Origin: Hydrogenophilales bacterium 16-64-40
GTDB taxonomy: Bacteria; Pseudomonadota; Gammaproteobacteria; Burkholderiales; Thiobacillaceae
NCBI GenBank assembly: GCA_002256995.1
Contig: NCGX01000006.1
Coordinates: 1-64,000, forward strand
Direction: 5' to 3'
DNA length: 64,000 nucleotides
Shown here: one piece after another, positions 7,635 through 43,222 of the stretch
How the letters are laid out: each line of letters begins with the position of its first letter
How positions within the stretch are numbered: position 1 is the first letter of the stretch
The notes under the pieces: generated by a model
Told to the model about the DNA's origin: nothing
Database searches by the model: none
The model's input: only the letters and a program-made list of their open reading frames with translations
Program-made: the position numbers and the translations under genes

Positions 7635-7648
7635 GATGTCGTATCTCC

Positions 7649-9377: not shown

Positions 9378-9378
9378 A

Positions 9379-10383: not shown

Positions 10384-11481
10384 CTAGATGACCTCCAGCT
10401 CGGCACGCAGCGCGCCCGATGCTTTCAGCGCCTGCAGGATCGCCAGCAGGTCCTGCGGGGTGGCGCCGATGGAATTGAGCGCCTTCACCACGTCGGAGAG
10501 CGACGCGCTGCCCTTGAGCAGCATGACTTCGCCCGGCTGCTGGCGGATTTCGATCTGCGACTGTGCAGCGACCACCGTCTGGCCTTTGGAAAATGGCGCG
10601 GGCTGGCTGATGACCGGTTCGGTGCTGATGACCACCGACAGGTTGCCGTGCGACACCGCGCTGGGGTCGAGCATGACGGCCCGGTTCATCACCACCGATC
10701 CGGTGCGCGCGTTGATGATGACCAGGGCCCGCGCCTGCGCGGGGCTGACCTCGAGGCTTTCGATCGCGCCCAGAAAAGCCACCCGATTGCTATCGCCCAC
10801 CGGTGTTCTCACCTGGATCACGCGGCCGTTGAGCGCGCGCGCGGTGTCCTGGCCGAAGCGTGTATTCACCGCGTCGACCACCCGGCTGGCGGTGGTGAAA
10901 TCGCTTTGCCGCAATTCCAGATTGATGCTACCGGATTCGCCCAGTGCGGTGGCGATGCTGCGCTCGACCGTCGCGCCGGCGGGGATGCGGCCGACGCTCA
11001 GATGGTTGATCTGCACCTGGCTGCCGTTGGCCGACGCGCCGGCGCCGCCGACCACCAGGTTGCCCTGCGCCATCGCGTAGATCTGCCCGTCGGCGCCTTT
11101 CAGCGGGGCCATCACCAGGGTGCCGCCGCGCAGGCTCTTGGCATTGCCGATCGACGACACCGTGATGTCGATGGTCTGCCCGGCCTGGGAAAACGGCGGC
11201 AGTTCGGCCGTCACCATCACCGCGGCGACGTTCTTCAGCTGCATGTTGACGCCAGTCGGCAGGTTGACGCCCATTTGCGTCAGCATGTTGGTGACGCTCT
11301 GCACGGTAAACGGCGTTTGCGTGGTCTGGTCGCCGCTGCCATCCAGGCCCACCACCAGGCCGTAGCCCACCAGCTGGTTGATGCGCACGCCCTGAATGGC
11401 GGCGATGTCCTTGATGCGCTCGGCATGCGCCATGCCGGAGAGCAACAGCGCGGCCAGCAGGAACAGACGGGAAATGGTCAT
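10384..11481 (-). CDS. flgI: flagellar P-ring protein FlgI
   Basis: Periplasmic P-ring subunit (365 aa) that bushes the rod in the peptidoglycan. An N-terminal signal peptide (MTISRLFLLAALLLSGMAHA, cleavage after AHA) is followed by ERIKDIAAIQGVRINQLVGY and LVVGLDGSGDQT, both hallmark FlgI segments. The ATG at 11481 fits the signal peptide better than the GTG nine bases upstream; neither has a strong ribosome site. It lies in the flgH-flgI-flgJ series with a 12-base gap to flgH. Confidence 0.96.
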   Translation of the reverse strand: MTISRLFLLAALLLSGMAHAERIKDIAAIQGVRINQLVGYGLVVGLDGSGDQTTQTPFTVQSVTNMLTQMGVNLPTGVNMQLKNVAAVMVTAELPPFSQAGQTIDITVSSIGNAKSLRGGTLVMAPLKGADGQIYAMAQGNLVVGGAGASANGSQVQINHLSVGRIPAGATVERSIATALGESGSINLELRQSDFTTASRVVDAVNTRFGQDTARALNGRVIQVRTPVGDSNRVAFLGAIESLEVSPAQARALVIINARTGSVVMNRAVMLDPSAVSHGNLSVVISTEPVISQPAPFSKGQTVVAAQSQIEIRQQPGEVMLLKGSASLSDVVKALNSIGATPQDLLAILQALKASGALRAELEVI

Positions 11482-11493
11482 GGCGCGCACCGT

Positions 11494-12228
11494 TTATAAA
11501 GGGATGAAACTCAGGAAAAAGCGGCCCAGCCAGCCCATCACCTCGGCCGAGTCGAACTTGGCGCTGGTGCGGTATTCGATGCGCGCGTCCGCCACCTTGG
11601 CCGACGACACGGTGTTGCCCGCCTGGATGGTGTCGGGCTGCACCACGCCCGAGAGGCGGATGTATTCGGTGCCCTTGTCGAGCGCGATCTGCTTTTCGCC
11701 GGCGACGATCAGGTTGCCGTTGGGCAGCACCTCGATCACGGTGACGGTGACGTTGCCGCTGAAGGTATTGCTGGAATTGAGCGCCGACTTGTCGGCGTAC
11801 TGGCTCGACGACTCGGCGTTCACACCCAGCTTCTGCAGCGATTTGAGCGACAGGCCGGCGACGGCGCTGATCGACGAATCGACCTCGCTGTCCTTCGACG
11901 CGCTAGATGACGCCTGCTTGCCGGCCTGGGTCTTCTCGTTGATGACGATGGTCAGCACGTCGCCGACGTGGCGCGCGCGCCGGTCTTCGAACAACGGGCG
12001 ATAAGCGGCCGCCTGATAGATAGTGCCATTGCTGGCCACCTGCGCGGGCGGCGTTTGCGGGCGTGCGGTGGTCGGATGCTCCACGATGGACGTCGGCGTG
12101 GTGCCGCAGCCGGCCAGGCCCAGCAATCCGGCCAGCAGGATGAATGCGCGCGAAATTCGGGGCGAGGGCGCCCCGATTGCGGACGCTGGCATGGTGCCGA
12201 AACCACCCGATTCAAGCGGCGCATTCAT
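11494..12228 (-). CDS. flgH: flagellar L-ring lipoprotein FlgH
   Basis: Outer-membrane L-ring subunit (244 aa). The ATG at 12228 follows a GAGG site, while the frame extends only to a TTG four codons further up. A lipoprotein signal ends in the lipobox LGLAGC, giving a lipidated Cys near residue 41. Characteristic segments include GTIYQAAAYRPLFEDRRAR, DVLTIVINEKTQAGKQ and a C-terminal LGRFFLSFIPL. It follows flgG after 8 bases. Confidence 0.96.
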   Translation of the reverse strand: MNAPLESGGFGTMPASAIGAPSPRISRAFILLAGLLGLAGCGTTPTSIVEHPTTARPQTPPAQVASNGTIYQAAAYRPLFEDRRARHVGDVLTIVINEKTQAGKQASSSASKDSEVDSSISAVAGLSLKSLQKLGVNAESSSQYADKSALNSSNTFSGNVTVTVIEVLPNGNLIVAGEKQIALDKGTEYIRLSGVVQPDTIQAGNTVSSAKVADARIEYRTSAKFDSAEVMGWLGRFFLSFIPL

Positions 12229-12236
12229 GGCAAGCC

Positions 12237-13019
12237 TCAAAGCTGGGTCAGGCGCTGCAGCATCTGGTCGGATGTCGAGATCGCCTTGCTGTTGATCTCG
12301 TACGCGCGCTGGGTCTGGATCATGTTGACCAGCTCTTCCACCACGTTGACGTTGGAGGTCTCGACGTAGCCCTGGTTGAGCAGGCCGGCGCCGTTGCTGC
12401 CGGGCGCGTTGGAACTCGGGGTGCCGGACGCGGCGGTTTCGGCGTAGAGGTTCTCGCCCAGGCTCTGCAGACCGGCCGGGTTGATGAACATCGCCAGCTG
12501 CAGGGTGCCGATGGAAGTCGCGTTGGACGACCCCGGCTGCGTGATCGACACCGTGCCGTCACGCGCGATGGTCAGGCTTTGCGTGTCGGCCGGGATGGTG
12601 ATGGCAGGCTGCACGGCGTAGCCGCTGGAGGTGACGAGCTGGCCATTGGCGTCGGCCTGGAACGAGCCGTCGCGGCTGTAGGCCGTGGTGCCGTCGGGCA
12701 TCAGCACCTGAAAGAAGCCGTTGCCCTGGATCGCCACGTCCTTGGCGTTGCCGGTCTGCTGCAGGTTGCCCTGGGTGAAGATGCGCTCGGTGGCCACCGG
12801 CTTCACGCCGGTGCCGATCTGCAGGCCGGACGGCAGCTGCGTCTGCTCGGACGATTGCGCGCCGGGCTGGCGGATGGTCTGGTACAGCAGGTCCTCGAAC
12901 ACCGCACGCGAGCGCTTGAAGCCGCTGGTGCTGACGTTGGCAAGGTTGTTGGAAATCACGTCCATCTGCGTCTGCTGCGCATCCAGGCCGGTCTTGGCAA
13001 TCCATAGTGAGCGAATCAT
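12237..13019 (-). CDS. flgG: flagellar distal rod protein FlgG
   Basis: Distal rod subunit (260 aa). It has the rod-family N-terminus ([20 protein letters not shown], then [16 protein letters not shown]) and C-terminus ([19 protein letters not shown], then [18 protein letters not shown]), plus the FlgG-type [13 protein letters not shown] core. An AGGAG ribosome site precedes the ATG. It is 23 bases downstream of flgF. Confidence 0.97.
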
Positions 13020-13042
13020 GTCGGCTCCTTAATTTAAGGGGG

Positions 13043-13783
13043 TCAGCTCATGCTCAGCAGCTGCGCTGCCTTGCTGTCGTTGTTCTCGGCGTGCTGCAGC
13101 AGTTTCATCTGCATGTCGAACTGGCGCGCCAGCGAAATCATGCTGACCATGCCGTCGACGACGTTGACGTTGGACGACTCCAGCGCGCCGCTGATCACCG
13201 TCACGTCGAGATCGGCGCCCGCCGGCGTGCCGTCTTTCAGCCGAAACAAACCATCGTCGCCGCGCACCAGGTCGGCTTCCGGCGGATTCACCAGCTTCAT
13301 GCGCCCGATCGCGGTGAGCCCGGTGGCGGCAGAGCCGTCGGGCACCACCGAAATCGTGCCGTCCTTGGCCACCGCGATGTTGCGGCCGGGTGGAATCGAC
13401 AGTGGACCGCCGTCGCCCAGCACGGTGAGGCCGTCGCGCGTCAGCAGCTGGCCGTTTTCGTCCAGCTTCAGGCTGCCGTTGCGGGTATAGCCTTCGCTGC
13501 CGTCTGCGGCCTGCACCGCAATCCAGCCGTCGCCCTGCACCGCCACATCGAGCTCGCGCCCGGTGTGCTGGATCGCCCCCCCGCGGAAATCGCTGCCGGT
13601 GGTGGAATCGACCACGAAGGCGCGGGTCGGCAGGATCGCGCCCTGGATCGGCACCGCGCGGAACTGGTCGATCTGGCCGCGAAAGCCGGTGGTGGTCGCG
13701 TTGGCCAGGTTGTGCGAAACGGTCGCCTGCTGTTCCAGGATGTGCTTCGCGCCTGACATGGCGGTGTAGATGAGACGGTCCAT
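13043..13783 (-). CDS. flgF: flagellar proximal rod protein FlgF
   Basis: Proximal rod subunit (246 aa). The N-terminus MDRLIYTAMSGAKHILEQQ and NLANATTTGFRGQ, the GDGWIAVQAADGSEGYTRNG core and the C-terminal ESSNVNVVDGMVSMISLARQ are typical of FlgF. It lies between flgE and flgG on the same strand with short gaps and no promoter of its own. Confidence 0.96.
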   Translation of the reverse strand: MDRLIYTAMSGAKHILEQQATVSHNLANATTTGFRGQIDQFRAVPIQGAILPTRAFVVDSTTGSDFRGGAIQHTGRELDVAVQGDGWIAVQAADGSEGYTRNGSLKLDENGQLLTRDGLTVLGDGGPLSIPPGRNIAVAKDGTISVVPDGSAATGLTAIGRMKLVNPPEADLVRGDDGLFRLKDGTPAGADLDVTVISGALESSNVNVVDGMVSMISLARQFDMQMKLLQHAENNDSKAAQLLSMS

Positions 13784-13807
13784 GCGGCCTCCCTGTTAAG
13801 TCAGCGC

Positions 13808-15049
13808 TTAGCGCAGGTTGACCAGGGTCTGCATCACCGCATCCTGGGCCTTGATGGTCTGCGCGTTGGCCTGATACACCCGCTGGGCGGTGATCATGTT
13901 GACCAGCTCGGCGGTCAGGTCGACGTTGGAATCCTCCACCGCCGACGACTGCAGCACGCCCAGGCTGCCCGAGGCGGGAACGCCGATCAGCGGATTGCCC
14001 GAGGTCGAGGTCTCGGCCCACATGTTGTTGCCCAGCTGCTGCAGGCCGTTGGGGTTGGCGAAGTTGGCCAGCACCACCTGGCCCAGCACCGCCGACTGGC
14101 CGTTGGTATAGCGGCCCAGCACCACGCCGTCGGCGCCGATGCTGAAGCCGGCCAACCGCCCCGAGGTGTAGCCGTCCTGGTTCAGCGTGTTGACGCTGAA
14201 CGAAGAGCCGAACTGGGTGGTGCCGGTGAAGTCGAGCGTGACATCGAATGGGGTCGTGGCACCCGTTGCCGTCGCCGGCACGCTGACGGCGGGCGTCAGC
14301 GGCATCGGCGTCGTCGTCAACATCCCGTTGGTGTCGAAGTTAAGCGTGCCAACCTGGCCAGTCGCGCCACTACCCACTATTGGCACGCCGTCATTGGCGG
14401 CATAAACATCCCATTGTCCGGCGGTGGCTGTTTTGACATAGAAGGTTTGCAGCGTCTGGGCGTTGCCCAGGCTGTCGTAGACCGAAACCGCCGTCGAATG
14501 ATTGAAGGTATCCGGGTCATTCATGTCAAAGGGGGCTGTCAACGGAACCGCACTACCGGAATCCAGATTGAGCACGGCATTCACGCCGGTCGTCATCTGC
14601 GGCGTCAAGTCGGCGGTGTTGATGCTCAGGGGCGACGGCGCGCCGGTCATCAGCGCGCCGCTGGCGTTCGCCGTGTAGCCGGTCAGCTTGGCGCCGGTCG
14701 GATTGACGATGAAGCCCATGCGGTCGAGCTGGAACTGGCCGTTGCGCTGGTAGGTGGCCTCGCCGTTGTTGTCCATGCGGAAGAAGCCGCCGCCGTTGAT
14801 CGCCATATCGAGCGGGTTGTTGGTCGCCGTGATGTTGCCCTGGGTGAACTGCTGGGCCACCTGCGCCACCTTGACGCCGATGCCGACGTTGGCGCCGCCG
14901 GCGCCGGTGAGCGAGTTGGCATAGACGTCGGCAAACTGCGCCTGCGACTGCTTGAACCCGACGGTGCCGGAGTTGGCGACGTTGTTGCCGATGACATCCA
15001 GATTCTTTGCGGCGGCATTGAGGCCGCTCAAGCCTTGCTGAAAACTCAT
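13808..15049 (-). CDS. flgE: flagellar hook protein FlgE
   Basis: Hook subunit (413 aa), exported and assembled under the FlgD cap. The N-terminus MSFQQGLSGLNAAAKNLDVI and NVANSGTVGFKQSQA and the C-terminus SNVDLTAELVNMITAQRVYQ are the conserved D0 helices. The FlgE-specific middle is present (for example TPFDMNDPDTFNHSTAVSVY and DSLGNAQTLQTFYVK). It is 57 bases downstream of flgD. Confidence 0.97.
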   Translation of the reverse strand: MSFQQGLSGLNAAAKNLDVIGNNVANSGTVGFKQSQAQFADVYANSLTGAGGANVGIGVKVAQVAQQFTQGNITATNNPLDMAINGGGFFRMDNNGEATYQRNGQFQLDRMGFIVNPTGAKLTGYTANASGALMTGAPSPLSINTADLTPQMTTGVNAVLNLDSGSAVPLTAPFDMNDPDTFNHSTAVSVYDSLGNAQTLQTFYVKTATAGQWDVYAANDGVPIVGSGATGQVGTLNFDTNGMLTTTPMPLTPAVSVPATATGATTPFDVTLDFTGTTQFGSSFSVNTLNQDGYTSGRLAGFSIGADGVVLGRYTNGQSAVLGQVVLANFANPNGLQQLGNNMWAETSTSGNPLIGVPASGSLGVLQSSAVEDSNVDLTAELVNMITAQRVYQANAQTIKAQDAVMQTLVNLR

Positions 15050-15106
15050 GTTCTGCTCCTTGTGTTGATTGCGACGGGTTTAGCCTTCAGGTTCACGTTG
15101 CCGTGC

Positions 15107-15772
15107 TCAGAAAATCTGCCGGATATCGGAATAACTCACGCGGTCGTTGCCCGCCAGGTTCAGCTGCACGCCCTGGCTACCCTGCGAAACGCTGTTGACC
15201 AGCCCCAGATGCAAGGCGGTGCTGCTGACCGCCTGGCCGTCCTGGACCGCATTGATCTTGAAGCTGTACCGACCCGCCGGCGCGGCTGCGCCGTTGCCGG
15301 TCAGCCCGTCCCAGGCCAGCACGTTGACCCCGTCTTCGCGCGGCCCCAGGTTGAGACTGCGCACCACGCTGCCGGCAGCGTCGAAAATATCGACCGTCAC
15401 CTGGTCGGCCGGGCGTGACAGGTCGAAGCCCATCACATCCTCCATCTCGGCAGGGCTGATGCTGTCGCCTGGCACCAGCACGGCGCGCCCGATCAGGCTG
15501 GCCGCCTGCCCCATCTGGTTGGCGCCCATGCTGGCAGCGAGCGCCGCAAGCGTGCCGTTCATGTCCTCGATGCCCTGCACGGTGGAAAGCTGGGCCATCT
15601 GGCTGGTCACCTGCGCGTTGTCGAGCGGGTTCAGCGGATCCTGGTTCTTCATCTGCGCCACCAGCAGGCTCAGAAAGCGGTTCTGCGTTTCCTCAGTGCT
15701 GGTCTTGGATGGTGCAGTCGTGCCCGCGCCAAACAGGCTGCTGACACTGCTTGTGTCTTGTACGGTGCTCAT
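15107..15772 (-). CDS. flgD: flagellar hook-capping scaffold FlgD
   Basis: Hook-assembly scaffold (221 aa). The N-terminal conserved block FLSLLVAQMKNQDPLNPLDN and TSQMAQLSTVQGIEDMN is the FlgD export/cap region. The C-terminal part is a beta-sandwich domain (VLAWDGLTGNGAAAPAGRYS). It sits between flgC and flgE as usual. Confidence 0.96.
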   Translation of the reverse strand: MSTVQDTSSVSSLFGAGTTAPSKTSTEETQNRFLSLLVAQMKNQDPLNPLDNAQVTSQMAQLSTVQGIEDMNGTLAALAASMGANQMGQAASLIGRAVLVPGDSISPAEMEDVMGFDLSRPADQVTVDIFDAAGSVVRSLNLGPREDGVNVLAWDGLTGNGAAAPAGRYSFKINAVQDGQAVSSTALHLGLVNSVSQGSQGVQLNLAGNDRVSYSDIRQIF

Positions 15773-15801
15773 TGCATCTCCTTAATTGCCGTCAAGGCTG
15801 A

Positions 15802-16206
15802 TCACTGGCCCAGGTTCAGGGTCTTGAGCAGCAGGGTTTTGGTGGTGTTCATCATTTCCACGTTGGACTGGTACGAACGCGAGGCGGAAATCATGTTGAC
15901 CATCTCCTCGACGACATTGACGTTGGGCATGGTGACGTAGCCCTTGTCGTCGGCGAGCGGATTCTTCGGGTCGTACACCAGCTTCATCGGCGACGGATCG
16001 TCGATCACCGCCGCCACGTTGACGCCGGTCGCGCCGTTGGTGCCCACCGGGGTGGCGGCAAACACGACCTGCTTGGCCCGGTAGGCTTCGCCGTTGGCGC
16101 TGGTTGCGCTGTCGGCGTTGGCCAGGTTGCTGGCGACGGCATTCAACCGCTGCGACTGGGCATTCATGGCCGAGCCGGCCACGCCGAAAATATCGAATAA
16201 AGACAT
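15802..16206 (-). CDS. flgC: flagellar basal-body rod protein FlgC
   Basis: Proximal rod subunit (134 aa). It shows the rod-family motif [35 protein letters not shown], the FlgC segment [20 protein letters not shown] and a C-terminal helix. The length is that of the family. The gap to flgB is only 12 bases. Confidence 0.97.
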
Positions 16207-16626: not shown

Positions 16627-16723
16627 GGTCGTCACCTCGTGTCTTTGCTGCGTGTGCCGCAAAGCCTTTTTGCGATGACTGCATCCTAGACATGCCCCTG
16701 TCCATCCAATCGCACGATAAGCG

Positions 16724-16738
16724 GCAAAAATCCCGCCC
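16724..16738 (-). promoter_or_regulatory. possible sigma-54-type promoter for the flgB operon
   Basis: On the minus strand GGGCGGGATTTTTGC carries a -24 GG and a -12 TTGC separated by the 10 bases required for RpoN promoters, about 100 bases ahead of flgB. The -24 box is only a partial match to TGGCAC, so this is a candidate rather than a firm call. Confidence 0.3.
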
Positions 16739-16808
16739 ATTTCGGCGCTTAAGATGGCGCGCCGCTTCCTACAATGGCGCAGAGAGAAGCCGAGTCGAGG
16801 AGTCGCAG

Positions 16809-17522
16809 ATGGCAGCAGGTGCACCCCATGCAGGTAGACGCGCCCCAGGAATGTGGCTGGCCGCCGCGTGCCTGTGCGTGACAGCCGTCGCTCACGCGTC
16901 GGATCGGCAGGATCCGGCCGCACTGCAGGCGCACGCCGAGCGCTTCCTGAAAACGCAAACCGACGGCCTCCCCGGCAAGGTGTCGATTCAGGTCAAGCCG
17001 CCGCGCAGCGCGCTGCCGGCCTGCACGGCGCTCGACGCCTTTCAGCCGGCCGGCAGCCGCAGCACCGGCAGGATCAGCGTGGGGGTGCGCTGCCTGGCGC
17101 CGACCCCATGGACGGTTTACCTGTCCGCCCAGGTGCGCGTGATCGGAAATTACGTCGTGACCCGCCAGGCGCTGCCTGCCAACCACATGCTAAGCGCGGC
17201 TGACATCACCCTGCGCGAAGGCGACCTCGGCAGCCTGCCCGCCGACGTCGTCACCGATGTCGATGCGATGCTGGGGTATCGCGCGGTTTCCGGGCTGGCG
17301 GCCGGCGCGCCGCTGCGCAATGCGCTGCTGCGCCCGCCGCTGGTGGTGCAGCAGGGACAGACCACCCGCCTGGTGATGAACGGCCCGGGCTTTTCCGTCC
17401 AGAGCCAGGGCCAGGCGCTGGCCAATGCCAGCCGTGGCGACCGGGTGCGGGTGAAAACCCGTTCCGGTCAGGTGGTCAGCGGCGTGGCGCAGGACGGCCA
17501 GCAGGTGGTGGTCAGCTTTTGA
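16809..17522 (+). CDS. flgA: flagellar P-ring assembly chaperone FlgA
   Basis: Periplasmic chaperone (237 aa) for FlgI polymerisation. The ATG at 16809 is chosen because GAGGAG lies 6 bases upstream and a signal peptide follows directly (MWLAAACLCVTAVAHA). The C-terminal SAF/FlgA domain is clear: VVTRQALPANHMLSAADITL, REGDLGSLPADVVTDVD, AVSGLAAGAPLRNALLRPP and VRVKTRSGQVVSGVA. It is divergent from flgB and first of flgA-flgM-flgN. Confidence 0.95.
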   Translation: MAAGAPHAGRRAPGMWLAAACLCVTAVAHASDRQDPAALQAHAERFLKTQTDGLPGKVSIQVKPPRSALPACTALDAFQPAGSRSTGRISVGVRCLAPTPWTVYLSAQVRVIGNYVVTRQALPANHMLSAADITLREGDLGSLPADVVTDVDAMLGYRAVSGLAAGAPLRNALLRPPLVVQQGQTTRLVMNGPGFSVQSQGQALANASRGDRVRVKTRSGQVVSGVAQDGQQVVVSF

Positions 17523-17618: not shown

Positions 17619-17915
17619 ATGAAAATTGATCCCGGACACAAGCCGGTCACCTTGCCGGCCGCCGTCGAAAACCGACCTGCCCAGCCGCAGGCGAACCCGC
17701 GTGCCGACACCGAGCAGACCAATGTCACCCTGAGTCAGCGCGCGGCGCAGATGAAGCAGCTGGAAACCCAGCTTGCGGCGATTCCGGTGATCGACCGGGC
17801 GCGCGTGGACAGCATCAAGGAAGCCATCGCCAGCGGCCAGTACACCATCAACACCGAAAACATCGCCGATGGCCTGATCGACTCGGTGAAGGAGATGCTC
17901 CGTGTCGCCCAATAA
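17619..17915 (+). CDS. flgM: anti-sigma-28 factor FlgM
   Basis: Cytoplasmic inhibitor of FliA (98 aa) that is exported once the hook is complete, releasing late-gene transcription. The C-terminal sigma-28-binding half is conserved: IDRARVDSIKEAIASGQYTI followed by ENIADGLIDSVKEML. The N-terminal half is polar and disordered, as in the family. It is 96 bases after flgA and overlaps flgN by 14 bases. A weak sigma-28-like match lies upstream at about 17571-17597 (AAAA-N15-GCTGATCC); I do not rely on it. A second FlgM-like protein is encoded at 36804-37112. Confidence 0.95.
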   Translation: MKIDPGHKPVTLPAAVENRPAQPQANPRADTEQTNVTLSQRAAQMKQLETQLAAIPVIDRARVDSIKEAIASGQYTINTENIADGLIDSVKEMLRVAQ

Positions 17916-18384
17916 ACCGTCGCAGTCCCTGATTGCCAGGCTGGCCGTGGAAAACGCCGCGTGGCAGGCATTGCTGCAGATGCTGCAGGACGAGGAACAG
18001 GCACTGATCGAAGGCGCCGCCGACCGCCTGGCGGGGTTGAACACCGTCAAGTTGAACCAGCTACAGACCGTGAGCGACCATGCGCGAAGCCGTCTTGCCG
18101 ATCTGCAAGCTGCCGGCCACACGCCCGATCACGCCGGCATGGACGCCTGGCTGGCGCAGCTCGGCCAGCCCGAAGCACGCACCCGCTGGCAACAGCTGCG
18201 CGACATGGAACAGGACGCACAGGCGATGAACCAGCGCATCGGCGCGCTGATCGAGCTGCGCCTGACCTCCACCCGGCAAGCGCTCAACGTGCTGGTCCAA
18301 AGCGCAACCAGCCAGGGCGGCCTGTACGACCATGCCGGCCAGTCGGTCGCCGCCCACAAAGGCAAACCGCTCACCGCCGCCTGA
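17902..18384 (+). CDS. flgN: flagellar export chaperone FlgN
   Basis: Predicted all-helical chaperone (160 aa) for FlgK and FlgL. The GTG start at 17902 lies inside the end of flgM and follows AAGGAG at good spacing, which points to translational coupling. Family features are the N-terminal LLQMLQDEEQALIEGAADRL and the C-terminal NQRIGALIELRLTSTRQALN. Identification rests on motif pattern plus the invariant flgM-flgN pairing. Confidence 0.9.
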   Translation: MSPNKPSQSLIARLAVENAAWQALLQMLQDEEQALIEGAADRLAGLNTVKLNQLQTVSDHARSRLADLQAAGHTPDHAGMDAWLAQLGQPEARTRWQQLRDMEQDAQAMNQRIGALIELRLTSTRQALNVLVQSATSQGGLYDHAGQSVAAHKGKPLTAA

Positions 18385-35632: not shown

Positions 35633-35867
35633 ATCCTAAAAACCGCAGTTGACCGCTCATAACTCTGAGGAATGCAGCATGAATATTAGTTTTTCTGCCT
35701 TCGACGCTTACCTACAAGGTGAGTCCGCTACGCACCCGCTGGCACGCCTGGTCGTGCGCCTGCCTTTGTCGCTCGTCGTTGCAGGCCCCGGCCTGCCGCC
35801 TCCTCGCTTCGCGGCAGACACCCGCCCAGGCGCACCATCGAGCGCGTCCAACTGCGGTTTCTAGGAT
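35633..35867. mobile_element. ~235-bp element with terminal inverted repeats (MITE-like)
   Basis: Between mfd and serB, a 19-base terminal inverted repeat with one mismatch (ATCCTAAAAACCGCAGTTG at 35633-35651; its reverse complement, with G in place of the second internal A, at 35849-35867) bounds about 200 bases. Inside are a small frame of 61 codons and several short hairpins. No clear target-site duplication is seen. The right repeat includes the serB start codon. It could be a non-autonomous transposon or another dispersed repeat. Confidence 0.55.
35679..35864 (+). CDS. small ORF inside the MITE-like element
   Basis: Sixty-one codons starting MNISFSAFDAYLQGE, with GAGG 9 bases ahead of the ATG, and ending NCGF within the right terminal repeat. 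The middle is Leu/Arg/Pro-rich (LARLVVRLPLSLVVAGPGLP) and resembles no family I know. It may be a chance frame in GC-rich repeat DNA; the visible ribosome site is the only support. Confidence 0.25.
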   Translation: MNISFSAFDAYLQGESATHPLARLVVRLPLSLVVAGPGLPPPRFAADTRPGAPSSASNCGF

Positions 35868-36708
35868 GAATCTGATCGTTCAGGGACCAGACGTCCCCAC
35901 CCCCGGCCTCAAGCAACTGGCCAAGCTCACCGGCGCTGCGGCCATCGAAGCGGTCTCGCGCACCGCATTCCGGCTGCTGGACGCCGACGACCGCGCGCGC
36001 GCCGAGGTCGCTGCCTACTGCGAGGCGCATCAGCTCGATTGCGGCTGGGTGCCGGCCGAGCGGCGCATCGGCGACTTCGGCCTTTTGGTGATGGACATGG
36101 ATTCGACCCTCATCAGCATCGAGTGTATCGACGAGATCGCCGACATGCAGGGCCTGAAACCGCAGGTGTCGGCGATTACCGAAGCCGCCATGCGCGGCGA
36201 GATCGACTTTGCCGAGAGCCTGCGCCAGCGCGTATCCCTGCTGGCCGGACTGGACCAGTCCGCCCTGCAGCGGGTCTACGACGAGCGCGTGCAGCTGTCA
36301 CCGGGCGCCGAGACCCTGCTGGCGGCGGCCCGTGCGGCAGGCATCCGGACGCTGCTGGTGTCGGGCGGCTTCACCTTCTTCACCGAGCGGCTGCGGCCGC
36401 GCCTCGCGCTCGACTACACCGCGGCCAACACGCTGGAGCTGGCCGACGGCAAGCTGACCGGGCGCATGCTCGGCGATGTCGTCGACGCCCAGGGCAAGGC
36501 CGACTGGCTCAACCGGGTGCGCGCCGAGCTGGGGCTGGCGCGCGCCCAGGTCGTCGCCATGGGCGACGGCGCCAACGACCTGAAAATGATGGCCGAAGCC
36601 GGCATCAGCATCGCCTACCGCGCCAAGCCGGTGGTGCGCGAAAAGGCCAGCTACGCGCTGAACCAGGTGGGGCTGGAGGGGGTGGTTCCGCTGTTGGGAG
36701 CGGGTTAA
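35866..36708 (+). CDS. serB: phosphoserine phosphatase SerB
   Basis: Haloacid-dehalogenase enzyme (280 aa) for the last step of serine synthesis. The N-terminal ~75 residues form an ACT-like segment. The catalytic loop is MDMDSTLISIECIDEIAD (nucleophile and acid/base Asp), motif II is TLLVSGGFTFFTERL and motif III GDGANDLKMMAEAG. The ATG at 35866 lies in the right terminal repeat of the element upstream, with almost no spacing to an AGG; a GTG further upstream (35719) stays in frame but encodes only element sequence. Confidence 0.95.
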   Translation: MNLIVQGPDVPTPGLKQLAKLTGAAAIEAVSRTAFRLLDADDRARAEVAAYCEAHQLDCGWVPAERRIGDFGLLVMDMDSTLISIECIDEIADMQGLKPQVSAITEAAMRGEIDFAESLRQRVSLLAGLDQSALQRVYDERVQLSPGAETLLAAARAAGIRTLLVSGGFTFFTERLRPRLALDYTAANTLELADGKLTGRMLGDVVDAQGKADWLNRVRAELGLARAQVVAMGDGANDLKMMAEAGISIAYRAKPVVREKASYALNQVGLEGVVPLLGAG

Positions 36709-36717: not shown

Positions 36718-36744
36718 TAAAGAAAATACGCTGGCTGCCGATAA
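36718..36744 (+). promoter_or_regulatory. sigma-28 (FliA) promoter, perfect consensus
   Basis: TAAA, 15 bases, GCCGATAA: all 12 consensus positions match. It begins 10 bases past the serB stop and lies about 60 bases ahead of the orphan flgM-like gene. Confidence 0.9.
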
Positions 36745-36803
36745 ACTATTGAGCACCCAATCTGTCATAAGATCGTACAACAGCGACCAGGTCCCTTCGT
36801 CCC

Positions 36804-37112
36804 GTGAAAATCGACAAGCGCATCACCCCGCCCGCCGCCGCCAAAACCTCTGCCACCAAGGGCAAGGGTGGAGGCAAGACCGCTGCCCCCACCGCGGGCG
36901 GCAGCGATTCCTTGACGCTGACCGAATCGAGTGCCCGAGTCCGCACGCTGGAAGCTCAGCTGGCATCGGTTGACGTCACCGACATCGGCAAAGTCGAGGC
37001 AGTCAAGGCGGCGCTTGCCGACGGCAGCTTCACCGTCGACGCCGAAGTGGTGGCCGACCGTCTGATCGACCACACCAAGGAAGCCTTGCGCAAACGTCCT
37101 CGCAAGAAGTAA
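36804..37112 (+). CDS. orphan second FlgM-like anti-sigma-28 protein
   Basis: A small basic protein (102 aa, GTG start) with the layout of FlgM. A disordered N-terminal half is rich in Ala, Lys and Gly (KGKGGGKTAAPTAGG). A C-terminal half follows that aligns with the sigma-28-binding part of the flgM product at 17619 (VEAVKAALADGSFTV..EVVADRLIDHTKEAL against VDSIKEAIASGQYTI..ENIADGLIDSVKEML). Both proteins start MKID. The gene stands alone, 20 kb from the flagellar cluster, with a perfect FliA promoter and its own strong terminator. The Lys/Arg-rich tail (RKRPRKK) is unlike the first FlgM. An anti-FliA role is likely but untested; export or a different sigma partner are alternatives. Confidence 0.8.
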   Translation: MKIDKRITPPAAAKTSATKGKGGGKTAAPTAGGSDSLTLTESSARVRTLEAQLASVDVTDIGKVEAVKAALADGSFTVDAEVVADRLIDHTKEALRKRPRKK

Positions 37113-37126
37113 TCTCCACCAGACCG

Positions 37127-37161
37127 ACAAAGGCCCGCGGCTACAAACCGCGGGCCTTTGT
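37127..37161 (+). terminator. strong terminator after the flgM-like gene
   Basis: A perfect 14-base-pair stem (ACAAAGGCCCGCGG, loop CTACAAA, CCGCGGGCCTTTGT) 15 bases after the stop codon. The flanks (TTTGTCTTT) suit plus-strand termination. Confidence 0.9.
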
Positions 37162-37211
37162 CTTTCAACTGGCATAAAATTCAGGCGTTACAGCGTCTTC
37201 CGGGGTTCAGC

Positions 37212-37478
37212 ATGAACGAAATTATTTTGTCCGTTACCGGCATGACCTGCGGCGGCTGCGTCAACAGCGTGCAGAAGGTGTTGGCAGCCTTGCCGGGGGT
37301 GCAAAACGTCGAAGTCACGCTGCACCCGCAGGGGGTAGGCCGTGGTTGTACAGCCGATAAATCGGCAACAACCACGCTCACGCCCGGCCAGGCGCGCGTG
37401 CGAGTCGACCCCGCCCGGGTTGACCGCGCGGCGCTGGTGCAGGCCGTCACCGATGCGGGGTTCGGCGTCGGCGACTGA
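37212..37478 (+). CDS. HMA-domain metal-binding protein (CopZ-like) with in-frame insertion
   Basis: Small cytosolic metal-chaperone-like protein (88 aa). The metal site is intact (VTGMTCGGCVNSVQKVLAAL, the GMTCxxC motif), and the fold continues with PGVQNVEVTL and, after an insertion, PGQARVRVDPARVDRAALVQ and TDAGFGV. Copper chaperones of this type are usually 65-70 aa; here about 19 extra residues (HPQGVGRGCTADKSATTTL) sit between strands two and three and are encoded by a palindrome. The ATG at 37212 matches the family start. There is no copper ATPase or regulator next to it. Function as a copper chaperone is inferred. Confidence 0.85.
   Translation: MNEIILSVTGMTCGGCVNSVQKVLAALPGVQNVEVTLHPQGVGRGCTADKSATTTLTPGQARVRVDPARVDRAALVQAVTDAGFGVGD
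37341..37376. repeat. REP-like palindrome inserted inside the CopZ-like gene
   Basis: Nested arms CGTGGTTGT / ACAACCACG and GCCGAT / ATCGGC around a two-base AA centre form a near-perfect 36-base hairpin. It is preceded by GTAGG, like the foot of REP elements. It encodes most of the extra loop in the host protein and keeps the frame. Confidence 0.8.
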
Positions 37479-37499: not shown

Positions 37500-39596
37500 T
37501 CACGCCGTACCGCACAGCGTATCCAGCGGTTCGGGGCAATGCACCCCGTTGCCCTGCACATAATCCACCCCGATCTCGCGCAGCACGGCCAGCGTTTGTG
37601 CCGACTCGACATATTCGGCCACGGTTTTCAGGCCCATCTGATGGCCGATGCGGTGAATCGCCTCGACCATGGAACGGTCGATCGGATTGGTGGCGATGTC
37701 ACGCACAAACGCGCCGTCGATCTTGAGGTAATCCACCTTCAGGTTCTTCAGATAGGTAAAGGACGACAGGCCGCTGCCAAAATCGTCGAGCGCGAAGCTG
37801 CAGCCAAATTCGCGCATGGCTTCGATGAATTCGTTGACGACGGCAAGGTTGCCGATGGCGGCCGTTTCGGTGATTTCAAAGCACAGATGCGGACCCTGAG
37901 CGGGGTTGTTCTGCAAGCGCTCGAGCAACATGCGGCGAAATGTCGGGTCTTTCAGCGACGCGCCCGACAGATTGACCGCAAACATGCAATGCTTCTCGCG
38001 CCTGGCCTCCAGATACCGCTGGCACACGCGTAGCGTTTCCTCGATCACCCAGCTGTCGAGGGCGGGCATGATGGAATAGCGCTCGGCCGCCGGGATGAAG
38101 GCCATCGGCAGGATTTCGCTGCCGTCGTCGTCCACCATCCGCAACAACAACTCGACGTGACAAGGCGGCTCCCCCACGCTATCGGTGCGGCGGATTTCCT
38201 GCCACGACAAGCGCAGGCGGTCTTCCTCCAGCGCCCGCTGGATGCGCGTCACCCACTGCATCTCGCCGCGGTGGCGCACCAGGTCGTGGTTGCTGCTTTC
38301 ATAGACATGAATCTGGTTGCGGCCGCGGTCCTTGGCCACATAACACGCGGCATCCGCGGCCGACAGCAGGCTGGCTGCGGTGCCGCTGTCGCGGTTGATC
38401 GCCACCATGCCCGCGCTCATGCCGACGTTGAAAATGCGGTCACCCCACTTGAAGCGGAAGCGCTGCACTTCGGCGCGGAACGTATCCGCTACCGCCAGCG
38501 CATCGGGGATGCTGCAGTTCTCCAGCAGCAGGGCGAACTCGTCGCCGCCCAGGCGCGCCAGCGTGTCGCGTTCGCGCAGATTGCCTTTCAGCAGCAGCGC
38601 CAGCTGGCGCAGCAGTTCGTCGCCCGCCGCATGGCCGCACGAATCGTTGATCACCTTGAACTGGTCGAGGTCCATGTAGCACAGCGCATGCTCCCGGTCC
38701 TGCTGCAGGGCCGACAGCAACGTGCGCTCCAGCCGCTGCTCGAACTCGCGGCGGTTGATCAGCCCCGTCAGGGCATCGTGGCTCGCCTGGTAAACCAAGC
38801 GGGCAGTGGCCTGGTCGATCTTTTCCTGCATCTGATCTTGCATCGACTGCAAGTGGGCCGCCATGTGATTGACGCCGCGCTGCAGACTGCCCAGCTCGGC
38901 CTGCCCGGTCTGCGCGACCCGTTCGTCGAGGTGCCCCTCGCCGATTCGGCTCACCGTGTGGGTCAAGGCCAGTATCGGCCGGGTGATCTGGCGCCCGATG
39001 CGCCAGGCCAGATACAGACTGACGCCCAAGCCGGCCAGCAGAATCGCCAGGCTGCGCAGGATGGCATCGCGCTGGCTCTTGATGGTGGCGTTGCGCGACA
39101 CGTCGAGGCCGACCCAGCCTAGCAGCCGGGTCTGGCTGCCCGGCTGCGCAGCGCGTTCGTCCACCAGGCTGAAATCGTCCACCGCCACCTCGGTACGGGT
39201 GATCGGCGCGTAATACACCAGTCGGTCCTGGTATTCGATCTGATGCAGGCGATCGGTGGGCAATCCGCCCTGCGCCGGTTCATCCCAGGCACCGAGGCCG
39301 AATTGCGACAGCACCTGGCCGTTATCGGCAAACACCGCCACCCCGCGGACGTCAGCTTCGATCGCCACTTTTTCGAGCAGGGTCTGCAGCACCTCGATAT
39401 TGCCCGAGGCGACGCCGTATTCGGCCGCCGGCGCGAGCTGACGGGCGATGGCCGCGGCACGGGTGCGCAGCGACTGATCGAGATCGTCGATTTTCCCGAC
39501 GATGAGCTGGACCAGCAACAGCACGCCAATGATGGCCATCGGCACCACGGCGAGGCCGATGACGCGTCCGCGTATTCCGTACGAAGTTGTTCTCAA
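37500..39596 (-). CDS. membrane GGDEF-EAL c-di-GMP signalling protein
   Basis: Inner-membrane protein (698 aa from a TTG start at 39596). The TTG overlaps the stop of the upstream gene (TTGA) and has GGAGGAGG ahead. Two helices (IGLAVVPMAIIGVLLLVQLI and LAILLAGLGVSLYLAWRIG) flank a periplasmic sensor of about 160 residues; HAMP follows. The GGDEF domain has an intact active motif (LARLGGDEFALL) and an I-site (RERD five residues before GGDEF). The EAL domain keeps most metal and catalytic residues (CFEITETAAIG, FALDDFGSG, LKIDGAFV, VAEYVES) although EAL itself reads ELL. Both synthesis and hydrolysis look possible. Confidence 0.9.
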   Translation of the reverse strand: MRTTSYGIRGRVIGLAVVPMAIIGVLLLVQLIVGKIDDLDQSLRTRAAAIARQLAPAAEYGVASGNIEVLQTLLEKVAIEADVRGVAVFADNGQVLSQFGLGAWDEPAQGGLPTDRLHQIEYQDRLVYYAPITRTEVAVDDFSLVDERAAQPGSQTRLLGWVGLDVSRNATIKSQRDAILRSLAILLAGLGVSLYLAWRIGRQITRPILALTHTVSRIGEGHLDERVAQTGQAELGSLQRGVNHMAAHLQSMQDQMQEKIDQATARLVYQASHDALTGLINRREFEQRLERTLLSALQQDREHALCYMDLDQFKVINDSCGHAAGDELLRQLALLLKGNLRERDTLARLGGDEFALLLENCSIPDALAVADTFRAEVQRFRFKWGDRIFNVGMSAGMVAINRDSGTAASLLSAADAACYVAKDRGRNQIHVYESSNHDLVRHRGEMQWVTRIQRALEEDRLRLSWQEIRRTDSVGEPPCHVELLLRMVDDDGSEILPMAFIPAAERYSIMPALDSWVIEETLRVCQRYLEARREKHCMFAVNLSGASLKDPTFRRMLLERLQNNPAQGPHLCFEITETAAIGNLAVVNEFIEAMREFGCSFALDDFGSGLSSFTYLKNLKVDYLKIDGAFVRDIATNPIDRSMVEAIHRIGHQMGLKTVAEYVESAQTLAVLREIGVDYVQGNGVHCPEPLDTLCGTA

Positions 39597-40516
39597 CGTC
39601 CTCCTCCCAAACGCTTTTCCAGCTCGGCTTCCGGCGGCAGCGTGAAACCGAGCGAGCGCGCCACCTGTTCGTTGATTGAGACGCTGAAATAAGCGGGGTA
39701 CGCAGGCGGCGGCAGATTCACCGGCACGCCCTCGATGGCACCCTTCACCCATTCGGCAGTCTGCCGGCCGATCTGCGCCGGGCTGGAGTGCAGCGACAGC
39801 AGCGCGCCTGCCCGCGTCAACGAACGTGAATAGCCCAGCACCGGGACACGGTAGCGGTAGGACGTCAGGAAGAGGCTTTGCGCGGTATTGCGGTTGAACA
39901 CCCGCGGATCGGGCACCGCCAGCAGCAACTCGGCGCCCGACAACACATTTTCAAGCGGCGTGATCAGCCGCTCATCCGCCGCCAGGATTTGATGCACCAG
40001 ACCGAGCCGCTGCGTGCGCAAGGCCTCGTCCAGTTCGCCCACCAAGCCGCCCTGTTCGGCACCCAGCAGCACCCCCACGCGCCTCGCCTCGGGGAAGGCC
40101 TGGCGTATCAACTGCGCCTGGCGCTCGAAGGGTTGATCGAGATAGATGGCCGATACATTGCGGCGGTCGCCGTCGCTCAGGCGAACACGCCCGATCCTGG
40201 TATACCACGCCCGCGGCACCAGGACCGCCAGCACCGGCGGCCGGGCTGGCAGCGCGGCCAGCGACTCGGCCGCCTGCACGCCCACCGCAACGGCCAGGCG
40301 CGCCCCGTTCACCGAAGTCGCGGTCAATTCCCCGGCATACGTCCGGACGGCCTCATGGGCCGAGTCGTCCAGATAGGCGCGGATGACCTGGTAGACCTCC
40401 TGATACGGCGCCGAGTCGTCGCTCAAGACCACCATCACCCGTGCCGCGACAGCCTGCGCCGACACCAGGGCCAGACAGGCGCAAGCCAGCCCCAGCCGCA
40501 GAATGCGCTGGAGCAT
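39593..40516 (-). CDS. periplasmic ABC-type substrate-binding protein
   Basis: Predicted exported protein (307 aa) with a signal peptide (LACACLALVSAQAVAA). It resembles the TrpX/YcjN-like ABC substrate-binding family (periplasmic binding fold; segments EARRVGVLLGAEQGGLVGEL, LLAVPDPRVFNRNTAQSLFL and YRVPVLGYSRSLTRAGALLS). No permease or ATPase gene is nearby. Its stop codon overlaps the start of the GGDEF-EAL gene, which suggests it senses a ligand for that protein rather than for transport. The start is the ATG at 40516. Confidence 0.8.
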   Translation of the reverse strand: MLQRILRLGLACACLALVSAQAVAARVMVVLSDDSAPYQEVYQVIRAYLDDSAHEAVRTYAGELTATSVNGARLAVAVGVQAAESLAALPARPPVLAVLVPRAWYTRIGRVRLSDGDRRNVSAIYLDQPFERQAQLIRQAFPEARRVGVLLGAEQGGLVGELDEALRTQRLGLVHQILAADERLITPLENVLSGAELLLAVPDPRVFNRNTAQSLFLTSYRYRVPVLGYSRSLTRAGALLSLHSSPAQIGRQTAEWVKGAIEGVPVNLPPPAYPAYFSVSINEQVARSLGFTLPPEAELEKRLGGGR

Positions 40517-40542
40517 GGTCCGTCTGCGCGGCAGCCAAGCCG

Positions 40543-41247
40543 TCAAACCGCCTCCTGCCCCCCGCCCCACAGGCACGCGCCCTTGCTTTCCCGGGCGATG
40601 GCCTCGAGCAGACTTGCGTGCGCGATCAGTTCCTCACCAGACGCCGGCAACAGCACGGGCTTGGGGCGCGCACGCGCGGCTGCCTGGTCGGCCTGCACGC
40701 TGCGCGTCTCCAGCCCGATCGACAGGCTTTCCTGCCCGCGTGTCAGCGCCAGATACACCGCCGCCAGCAGCTCACAGTCGACCAATGCGCCGTGCAGCGT
40801 GCGCGCGGCGTTGTCGACGCCATAGTGCTTGCACAGCGCATCGAGGTTGTTGCGCTGCCCGGGGCGCAGCGCCTTGGCCATCGCCAGGGTGTCGGTCACG
40901 GCGTCGCACCAGCTGGGCAGCGGCGCCATGTCGAGCAGACGCAGCTCCATGTTGAGGAAGCCGACGTCGAATGGCGCATTGTGAATAATGAGTTCGGCAC
41001 CCTGAATGAAGTCGACGAACTCGTGCGCGATGTCGGCAAAGCGCGGCTTGTCCTGCAGGAATTCGGGCGTGATACCGTGCACCTGCATCGCCCCGGCGTC
41101 GATGTCACGATCCGGGTTCACGTAACGGTGCAGGTGGTTGCCGGTGAGCCGCCGGTTGACCATCTCCACCGCCGCCACTTCGATGATGCGATGCCCCTGT
41201 TTGGGGTCGAGGCCGGTGGTTTCGGTGTCGAGAATGATTTGTCGCAT
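40543..41247 (-). CDS. dnaQ: DNA polymerase III epsilon subunit (proofreading exonuclease)
   Basis: 3'-5' exonuclease (234 aa) that proofreads for the replicative polymerase. ExoI motif LDTETTGLDPKQGHRIIEVA, ExoII LIIHNAPFDVGFLNMEL and ExoIII HGALVDCELLAAVYLAL have all metal-binding residues, as in DnaQ-H exonucleases. The C-terminal ~45 residues would bind the alpha subunit. The ATG at 41247 is 7 bases past the rnhA stop. Order dnaQ-rnhA-methyltransferase-gloB-mltD matches the enterobacterial neighbourhood. Confidence 0.95.
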   Translation of the reverse strand: MRQIILDTETTGLDPKQGHRIIEVAAVEMVNRRLTGNHLHRYVNPDRDIDAGAMQVHGITPEFLQDKPRFADIAHEFVDFIQGAELIIHNAPFDVGFLNMELRLLDMAPLPSWCDAVTDTLAMAKALRPGQRNNLDALCKHYGVDNAARTLHGALVDCELLAAVYLALTRGQESLSIGLETRSVQADQAAARARPKPVLLPASGEELIAHASLLEAIARESKGACLWGGGQEAV

Positions 41248-41254
41248 GTCGGTA

Positions 41255-41695
41255 TTATTGCGCCTGCAAGACGCCCTGGTTGGCCAGTTCGTCGGCACGC
41301 TCGTTCTCGGGATGGCCGTTGTGGCCGCGCACCCATTTCCATTCGATGCGATGCAGCTGGCTCAAGGCATCCAGCTGCAGCCACAGATCCTGGTTCTTCA
41401 CCGGCTGGCCAGCGGCGGTGCGCCAGTTGCGCCGCTTCCAGCCGGCCATCCATTCGCTGACGCCTTTTTGCACGTATTGCGAATCGGTGTGGACCTCGAC
41501 GGTGGACGGGCGCTTCAGCGATTCCAGCGCGCGAATCACCGCGGTCATCTCCATGCGGTTGTTGGTGGTGTTGGCTTCGCCGCCGCAGATTTCCTTGCGA
41601 TGCCCGTCCGCCACCAGCAAGGCGCCCCAGCCGCCGGCGCCGGGGTTGCCCTTGCAGGCGCCGTCGCTGTAAATGTAAATGGTGTCAGCGTTCAC
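41255..41695 (-). CDS. rnhA: ribonuclease HI
   Basis: Cleaves the RNA of RNA-DNA hybrids (146 aa). Catalytic carboxylates are in [46 protein letters not shown] and [12 protein letters not shown]. The length is that of E. coli RNase HI. It overlaps the methyltransferase gene by 11 bases and leads directly into dnaQ. Confidence 0.97.
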
Positions 41696-42422
41696 GATGT
41701 ATCCGATAATGTTTGAGGTTGATCACTTTCGCCGCAGGCGACAGCAGCCGTCGTGCCACCGGCGTTTTCCACTGCGGCAAAATGATATTCATGCCCTGCA
41801 CGCGTTTCACCGCCTGCAGGAAATACACGCCGCCGCCCATGGCCCACCAGCGGTCGCCGGCAGGCTCCATGAAGCGCAGACGCCGCAGCCAGGATTCGCG
41901 GTTGAGCGGCGGGCGGTAGCAACACATGCTGCCAGCCGCCACCTCGAGCCCGAGCAAGGCAATCCAGTCCTTCACCCGCGAAATATTCAGGAAGTTTCCG
42001 TTCCACGGATAGCCGCGTTCGCCCCCCTGCAGCACCCGCGCCAGCCCCCATAGGCTGCGCGGGTTGAAGCCGGCCAGCACCAGGCGGCCTTCCGGGCGCA
42101 AGACGCGCTCGGCCTCGCGCAGCACCTGGTGCGGGTTGGCGCTGAATTCGAGCACATGCGGCAGCAGCAGCAAATCGAGCGACTGGCTCTCGAACGGCAT
42201 GAACATGGGGTTGGCCCGCACCGCGGCAGACGCTTCCACCGCGCAGGTCACGCGCAGCGGAATCCGGCTGTTGCGCAGAAAATCGATCTCCGGCAGGCCG
42301 ACCTGTACCGCGTTGAAGCCGAACACATCCGACACCGCATTGTCGAAATAGCGTTGCTCGCGGAACAGCAGATGCCGCCCTAGCGGGGTTTCAAACCATC
42401 CGGCATCCAGCTTGGATAACAT
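41685..42422 (-). CDS. SAM-dependent methyltransferase (YafS-like)
   Basis: Class I methyltransferase (245 aa) of the type found between rnhA and gloB. The N-terminus ([20 protein letters not shown]) is typical of this group; the post-motif I and motif II region reads [20 protein letters not shown] and [20 protein letters not shown]. The glycine-rich SAM motif is weak, being replaced by [14 protein letters not shown], as in other members of this group. The substrate is unknown. It is divergent from gloB. Confidence 0.85.
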
Positions 42423-42451
42423 AGCGACTCCTCCTGTCCGGCAGACTTATT

Positions 42452-43222
42452 ATGTTGACACTCATTTCCCTGCCTGCGTTCGAAGACAACTACATCTGGG
42501 TGTGGCACGACGAGCGCCACGCGGTCGCGGTCGATCCCGGCGATCCAGCGCCGCTGATCGCTTTTCTCGACGCCCATCAACTCGTCCTGACCGCAGTGCT
42601 GATCACCCACCACCACCGCGACCATACTGGCGGCAACACCCTGCTGCGTCAACGCTACAACTGCGCCATCTACGCGCCGGAGAACCTGCGCATTCCTGCC
42701 GTCAGCCATGTCCTGCACAATGGCGACACAGTGGACATTGCCGAACCGGGGTTGCACTTCAAGGTGCTGGCGACGCCCGGCCACACGCTCGACCATATCA
42801 GCTATATCGGACACGGCTGCCTGTTCTGCGGCGATACCGTTTTCGGCTGCGGCTGCGGGAAGTTGTTCGAAGGCAGCCCCGCGATGATGGCCGCCAGCCT
42901 CGACGCCATTTTAACGCTGCCCGATACTACCCGGGTCTGCTGCGCGCACGAATACACCCTGAGCAATATTGACTTTGCCAAAACCATCGATGGCGACAAT
43001 CCTGCGCTGCTGGCACGCGAACGCGCCGACCGTGCCCTGCGCGCACAAAACCGCCCCACCCTGCCCTCGACCCTGGCGCTGGAAAAAGCCACCAATCCGT
43101 TTCTGCGCTTCCACGACCCCGCCATGACGGCTTTTGCCGCCCGCTATCTGAAACGCCCGCATCCCGCCCCCGCCGAGGTGTTCGGCGCGATCCGCGCCGC
43201 CAAGGATGCTTGGGACGGTTGA
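42452..43222 (+). CDS. gloB: hydroxyacylglutathione hydrolase (glyoxalase II)
   Basis: Binuclear zinc hydrolase (256 aa) of methylglyoxal detoxification, releasing lactate from S-lactoylglutathione. The metallo-beta-lactamase motif THHHRDHTGGN, TPGHTLDH, FCGDTVFGCGCGKLFEG and the C-terminal glutathione-site region are all present. The ATG lies 29 bases from the divergent methyltransferase start. Confidence 0.96.
   Translation: MLTLISLPAFEDNYIWVWHDERHAVAVDPGDPAPLIAFLDAHQLVLTAVLITHHHRDHTGGNTLLRQRYNCAIYAPENLRIPAVSHVLHNGDTVDIAEPGLHFKVLATPGHTLDHISYIGHGCLFCGDTVFGCGCGKLFEGSPAMMAASLDAILTLPDTTRVCCAHEYTLSNIDFAKTIDGDNPALLARERADRALRAQNRPTLPSTLALEKATNPFLRFHDPAMTAFAARYLKRPHPAPAEVFGAIRAAKDAWDG

Follow-up and report, generated by a model that had tools for sequence, protein, structure and literature searches.

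The stretch of DNA analysed here (the window, 64,000 nucleotides) opens contig C8 in the 3.10-Mb genome of a sulfur-oxidising Thiobacillus (G000). A gene at 36804-37112 on the forward strand, with a GTG start, encodes a protein of 102 aa, and we refer to it as flgM2 on the evidence of FlgM profiles, tree and gene order. The original prediction had taken its product for a second FlgM-like protein, and the curated profiles agree. It matches FlgM of Pfam (PF04316) at 44.3 bits against a cut-off of 25 (E 2.1e-11, residues 35-89), and the FlgM equivalog of NCBIfam (TIGR03824) at 69.8 bits against a cut-off of 40.75 (residues 1-91). A profile built from nine FlgM2 rows together with FlgM1 and E. coli FlgM retrieved the FlgM structure 9wsf_B (E 1.4e-13) and, weakly, 1rp3_B (E 0.017). 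The basic C-terminal tail that had been predicted is present, as RKRPRKK or RNRPRKK, in 9/9 aligned FlgM2 rows. As judged from its sequence, FlgM2 is thus a putative anti-sigma28 factor that probably restrains a FliA.

Upstream of flgM2 on the same strand is a sigma28-type promoter box, TAAAGAAA-N11-GCCGATAA, at 36718-36744, with the -35 element at 36718-36725 and the -10 element at 36737-36744. Taking TAAA and GCCGATAA together, 12/12 bases fit the sigma28 consensus, although the -35 element runs on as GAAA where the E. coli consensus continues with GTTT. The pattern TAAA-N14-16-GCCGATAA has just two perfect matches in the 3.1-Mb genome, one of which is the flgM2 box, and the backward control has none. 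Among the upstream regions of 47 fetched loci, all 12 box bases are present in 18, 11 in seven, 10 in two, and fewer in 20, such that 25/47 have at least 11, as against a maximum of 10 in shuffled upstreams (n=2250); for two of these loci the upstream sequence was shorter than 200 bases (142 and 66), and L078 is an ordinary flgA-flgM-flgN cluster and not flgM2. A TAAGGTTTT..GCCGTA-like stretch replaces the box in 15 of the 47. By box sequence, spacing and conservation in relatives, this looks like a sigma28 promoter, as had been claimed, although it is not universal. A FlgM family protein under a sigma28-like promoter would be expected to feed back negatively on the sigma factor that transcribes it, in agreement with the original prediction.

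An imperfect palindrome, ATTGAGCACCCAAT, directly follows the -10 element on the forward strand (36748-36761; ATTGAGTACTCAAT in some relatives). Its partly palindromic ATTGAG..CAAT is kept in several relatives, and it is a possible operator or 5' leader element. Behind the gene is an intrinsic-terminator-like hairpin (37126-37162, forward strand) in which 37126-37140 pair with 37148-37162 across a 7-nt loop; the fold has a z of -7.7, and the T run behind it is short. The terminator stem that had been proposed is therefore present, but it is a perfect stem of 15 bp, not 14. Further downstream, a small metal-binding-like ORF (named from its sequence) contains a 34-base palindromic stretch, GTGGTTGT...ACAACCAC, at 37342-37375; in two relatives (L032 and L051) this ORF is 19 residues shorter at the palindrome, and a near copy of the palindrome's first half, with 1 mismatch in 17 bases, is found on the minus strand of another locus (L137).

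On the left, flgM2 is preceded by a SerB-like gene (35866-36708, forward strand; name read from sequence), which occupies the place of the flg cluster of flagellated relatives. On the right is a syntenic block (37500-43222) of genes that read as GGDEF-EAL, ABC-type substrate-binding-like, DnaQ, RnhA, methyltransferase and GloB. In the four annotated loci of the subgroup with the TAAGGTTTT..GCCGTA-like stretch (L032, L051, L055 and L074), flgM2 lies behind a DUF1015-like gene and not serB; at L077 the DUF1015-like gene is also present, yet the box begins as the TAAAGAAA type.

The window also contains part of a complete flagellar system, which we refer to as system 1. A rod/hook cluster (flgL,K,J,I,H,G,F,E,D,C; 6717-16206, minus strand) includes five Flg_bbr_C matches, and is followed on the forward strand by flgA (16692-17522, by BLAST to E. 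coli FlgA), flgM1 (17619-17915) and a flgN-like gene (17902-18384; weak BLAST match to E. coli FlgN, E 6.6e-6). The flgM1 product, encoded between flgA and the flgN-like gene, passes the NCBIfam FlgM equivalog cut-off. It lies about 19 kb from flgM2, close to the 20 kb first given. The FliA gene of this system (fliA1, contig C44) adjoins flhDC, motAB and the flhBA genes of system 1. On the same contig, flhA1 (L083 14760-16741) is split into two overlapping reading frames in the G000 assembly, reflecting either a sequencing error or a real break; it is in one frame in several other genomes of the genus.

G000 carries a second set of flagellar genes, system 2, in two operons on other contigs. 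In flhB2(short)-flhA2-flhF2-flhG2-fliA2 (contig C40) the gene for a second FliA is the last; this operon was read in six genomes (G000, G011, G015, G024, G029 and G202). The other, fliF2-G2-H2-I2-J2-X-O2-P2-Q2-R2 (contig C1), was read in five. Pfam confirms the system 2 FlhB, FlhA, FliA sigma regions, FliF, FliG, FliH, FliI ATPase, FliO, FliR and FliJ, as well as an SRP54-type GTPase that is FlhF by its place; FliP was identified by family search and FliQ by BLAST. System 2 thus has homologs of the flagellar type III export set (FlhA, FlhB, FliP/Q/R, FliF/G/H/I/J/O). Gene X, between fliJ2 and fliO2, has no match in Pfam (one protein searched) or NCBIfam (three proteins), and by eye reads like a FliM/SctQ remnant. 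The FliA2 of G000 (L082 7344-8045) ends in RLRA, a few residues short of five other aligned FliA2 proteins.

Several parts are missing from these proteins. The NCBIfam cut-off is passed by the system 2 FliF but failed by FlhB2 (141 versus 349 bits), with the match ending at position 254 of the 348-position profile. The short FlhB proteins are 251-273 aa in length, and the NPTH motif of the autocleavage domain is absent from all five checked (four Thiobacillus and G266). By pattern test both FlhG2 proteins examined lack the P-loop, and both keep DQAAGLR. Since FlhB2 is without the autocleavage domain and FlhG2 without a P-loop, export may not work in the usual way. All five Flg_bbr_C (PF06429) matches of G000 fall within the system 1 cluster, and a rod/hook set belonging to system 2 was thus not found. 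Likewise, in three genomes without FlgM1 (G003, G015 and G029) there are no matches to PF06429 or to Flagellin_N (PF00669), the two families used for the axial searches, with FliE, FliK, FliM and FliN judged from the operons only. We therefore rejected the idea that system 2 is a second complete flagellum, as the axial matches are missing.

How FlgM2 relates to these two systems is informed by its distribution. FlgM was found in 54/60 genomes, G000 included. With typing by score and profile range, the FlgM2 type is present in 36/36 genomes of the genus, two of them partial (G009 and G013), and FlgM1 in 25/36; all 11 genus genomes with a single FlgM have the FlgM2 type. Two FliA proteins over the cut-off are present in 26/36, and two or more FlhA matches, some in pieces, in 30/36. 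In an order-wide sample of 399 genomes, 243 have a FlgM match at E 0.001 and only three have two, all of them Thiobacillus (four Thiobacillus were sampled, G000 included), although distant second copies elsewhere could be missed because FlgM2 was the BLAST query.

The original prediction was that flgM2 is an orphan, and that the two FlgM proteins share one flagellar FliA as their target, one perhaps being exported with the hook and the other staying inside to limit late gene expression. We consider this improbable. It is in keeping with both proteins passing the FlgM equivalog cut-off, and FlgM and FliA of related pairs could plausibly cross-bind. Differences between the N-termini make a weak argument because FlgM1 and FlgM2 both start with MKID, although in the alignment their N-terminal regions and tails do differ. 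Two incomplete genomes (G021, 79% complete, and G022, 75%) have FlgM2 together with a FliA1-type FliA, and FliA2 was not found in them, so that the FlgM2-FliA2 pair is not seen there. However, a second FliA exists, in a genome with two FliA and two FlhA, and FlgM2 is present with no match to FlgM1, FliA1, rod/hook proteins or flagellin in G003, G015 and G029. G015 and G029 (97% complete) each have a single FlgM, FlhA and FliP and a single FliA over the cut-off; FlgM2, FliA2 and the export set are kept, and FlhB is without the cleavage domain. G003 keeps FliA2, FliP2 and FlgM2; FlhA was not found in it, and its contig ends in flhF2. Genome-wide searches of G202 (99% complete) for FlgM and FlhA gave a single match each, and these belong to system 2. 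Five of the 11 single-FlgM genomes (G004, G014, G022, G031 and G035) have Flagellin_N matches, and G022 also has three rod/hook matches, so FlgM1 may be merely missing from these assemblies. In G009 (75% complete), with its partial FlgM2, there was no FliA over the cut-off, no FlhA and no FliP.

The promoters also speak against a shared FliA. Flagellin genes are preceded by a different box, TTAACTTT-N11-GACGATTC, in 20/20 upstreams (one from each of 20 selected genomes), located 93-125 bases before the Flagellin_N match. Scanning 269 kb of G000 for this flagellin box gave two sites, one upstream of a MotA gene and one upstream of a CheY-like gene, with three mismatches in each. We read the working flagellum as a distinct system of the FlhDC type, served by FliA1, FlgM1 and a promoter type of its own.

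With up to two mismatches, 12 genomes contain 104 matches to the flgM2-type box versus 58 for the reversed pattern, but in the FlgM1-less G003, G015, G029 and G202 there are 22 versus 24, with no overall excess, and box counts alone therefore prove nothing in these genomes. In 620 kb of loci the real pattern has six matches, three of them near a start, compared with an average of 0.25 for permuted patterns; two of the six are flgM2 boxes, and half of the permuted matches are also intergenic. Two genes stand out by position and conservation. A box precedes fimV in 12/12 genomes, 54-56 bases before the start, and a FlaF-like gene in 10/12 at a constant distance (no box was found for the latter in G012 and G015). 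In the three genomes in which FliA1 was not found, the fimV box is present in 3/3 and the flaF box in 2/3, and G202 has both. Both boxes are better kept than the sequence upstream of them (five and four genomes aligned, respectively). The FlaF-like protein matches PF07309 at 31.5 bits against a cut-off of 23.6 but fails the NCBIfam equivalog (28.6 versus 91). Behind the FlaF-like gene in 4/4 genomes is a small Lys/Arg-rich ORF (L222 792-1043) with a conserved C-terminal part, ..RGRYVDEYA..

Among further box sites in G000, the context was read at 11, including those of fimV and flaF; 10 of these are intergenic and eight lie within 15-150 bases of a start. The genes at these eight are fimV, flaF, GGDEF, GGDEF-EAL, dynamin-like, DUF4124, CheY-like and one that is unnamed; a DUF1631 gene is 208 bases from its box. 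Conservation is weaker at the sites beyond fimV and flaF. No credible sigma28-like box was seen before fliF2 or flhB2, the best in each of eight upstreams having 7/11 bases.

Both tree and gene order bear on the origin of flgM2. In the FlgM tree, FlgM2 and the FlgM of G266 join FlgM of the sister-genus genomes G123 and G164 and of L078 with support of 99/96, with FlgM1 apart, although G266 sits on a long branch and the bootstrap had yet to settle completely. In the flagellated G078, G296, G355, G326 and L078, flgA-flgM has the rod/hook cluster, with its flgB side, on one flank and DnaQ-RnhA-methyltransferase on the other; in G326 GGDEF-EAL and substrate-binding-like genes also intervene between flgA-flgM and DnaQ. 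The same DnaQ-RnhA-methyltransferase neighbours are on one side of flgM2 in the window, G015, G202, G003, G009 and G266, and on the other flank Mfd, with a SerB or DUF1015 gene, replaces the flg cluster. No DnaQ match was found within about 10 kb of flgA-flgM in the sister-genus G123, G164 and G236. From the tree and the shared DnaQ-RnhA gene order, FlgM2 is probably the native flgM of the Thiobacillaceae and not an orphan duplicate, and a gene native to its locus is a further point against the two FlgM proteins sharing one FliA.

For the export genes of system 2 the gene order in some genomes suggests that they are perhaps native too. The isc genes adjoin flhB in G015, G202 and G024, and also in G085 of another family; they are about 12 kb from flhB2 in G011, and are absent beside flhB2 from the stretches examined in G000, G029, G266 and the sister genera. 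In the FlhA and FliA trees, system 2 forms a separate branch with G266, and a clade of system 2 with the genera of the family was not recovered but also not rejected (p-AU 0.285 and 0.298). A single FlhA clade of systems 1 and 2 was rejected (p-AU 0.020), this grouping having been named after the tree was seen. A recent duplication of flgM inside the genus was likewise rejected, as FlgM1 and FlgM2 are apart in the tree and the joint FlhA clade has a p-AU of 0.020. System 1 is a separate lineage, perhaps an acquired one.

The reading that we favour, and hold to be rather probable, is that a native FlgM2, itself autoregulated, restrains FliA2 as a sigma28 retained for genes outside the flagellum, and does so beside a stripped export machine. 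FlgM identity, the two FliA/FlhA sets, purifying selection, synteny and conserved boxes are read directly from the sequences, as is the lack of axial matches in the three genomes without FlgM1; from there we infer the pairing of FlgM2 with FliA2, sigma dependence, export and a physiological role. In such a scheme, flgM2 would stand at the former flgA-flgM place, with the surrounding rod/hook cluster gone, and its partner would most likely be FliA2, which FlgM2 would bind and hold in check. The two system 2 operons, with no rod, hook or filament genes found, would form a flagellar-type export machine. Free FliA2 would probably transcribe fimV, the FlaF-like gene and flgM2 itself, the last of which would close a negative loop. 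FlgM2 could be relieved either by export through the stripped machine or by sequestration near it. Release by this machine would preserve the classical checkpoint in the absence of an organelle, but may not operate, as FlhB2 is without the switch domain.

The main alternative, less likely but worth some consideration, is that the FlgM2-FliA2 pair is real and that release occurs elsewhere, via the complete system 1 exporter or by anti-anti-sigma titration. The export competence of the stripped machine is doubtful because NPTH is absent from all of the short FlhB proteins examined, and partner switching on FlgM has been described in Pseudomonas, where HsbA titrates FlgM (PMC5085249). On the other hand, the sole FlhA and FliP of G015 and G029 belong to system 2, and no system 1 exporter was found in these genomes through which FlgM2 might be released.

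One might also suppose that flgM2 and the rest of system 2 no longer have a function and are decaying remnants, which we think very improbable. Key parts are lost from FlhB2 and FlhG2, and leftover flagellar genes are known in non-flagellated bacteria (PMC9927559). FlhG2 also has the highest dN/dS, 0.40, from one pair. However, dN/dS of 0.035-0.32 for the system 2 genes tested indicates purifying selection, with FlhA2, FliA2, FliI2, FliP2 and FlgM2 at 0.035-0.23; FlgM2 is present throughout the genus and boxes are conserved at three genes.

Our favoured reading, that FlgM2 restrains a non-flagellar FliA2, has a broader form that we offer tentatively, as possible but doubtful. The flagellar checkpoint of export machine, FlgM and sigma28 may have outlived the organelle across the genus as a stand-alone signalling circuit. 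A gate without rod, hook, filament or specificity switch would then decide the level of FlgM2, and the sigma28 regulon switched would comprise fimV and the FlaF-like gene, perhaps along with further genes for the cell surface or cyclic-di-GMP. The distinct promoter type would insulate this circuit from the cell's real flagellum.

FlgM-FliA is the checkpoint of the bacterial flagellum in E. coli and Salmonella. The Thiobacillus arrangement resembles it in having a FlgM family protein, a sigma28-type promoter and likely autoregulation, and in that its genome also encodes FliA (here a second one) and an export set of the flagellar type. It differs in that no axial genes were found for the set that includes FliA2, the specificity-switch domain is missing from FlhB2, and fimV and the FlaF-like gene, which after flgM2 have the best conserved boxes, are not flagellins. 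In the lateral flagella of Vibrio and Aeromonas there are dual flagellar systems, each with its own sigma28 and FlgM, and Thiobacillus is similar, with two sigma factors of the FliA type and two FlgM proteins per cell. However, the second set of Vibrio and Aeromonas builds a flagellum, whereas rod, hook and filament genes were not found for that of Thiobacillus.

By analogy, the nearest functional precedent is Lysobacter enzymogenes, which is non-flagellated and in which type IV pilus twitching requires flhA, flhB, fliI and fliR (PMC7277350, PMC9927559); neither main text mentions FliA or FlgM. As in Lysobacter, there are flagellar export genes without a flagellum and a link to type IV pili, here the box before fimV in all 12 genomes, although, unlike Lysobacter, many Thiobacillus genomes hold the export set plus a complete flagellum. 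Cryo-tomography of species with a flagellar export system has shown a hat-like structure in the inner membrane that is related to the export core of the flagellum (PMC9380563, which mentions neither FliA nor FlgM). It likewise suggests that an export core may exist apart from a flagellum. A literature search, outside which most subscription papers fell, listed no paper on FlgM, FliA or an axial-less export set in Thiobacillus.

If the favoured reading is right, Thiobacillus would provide a natural experiment on the flagellar export core and the sigma28 circuit without a flagellum, in a genus in which a complete flagellum is encoded as well in many genomes, while a few appear to be without one. 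It would then be testable whether an axial-less export gate still senses or secretes FlgM, by what means a cell keeps two sigma28 circuits separate, and whether the link between export genes and type IV pili that was described in Lysobacter is more general. It also serves as a warning that 'extra' flagellar regulators may be the original ones.
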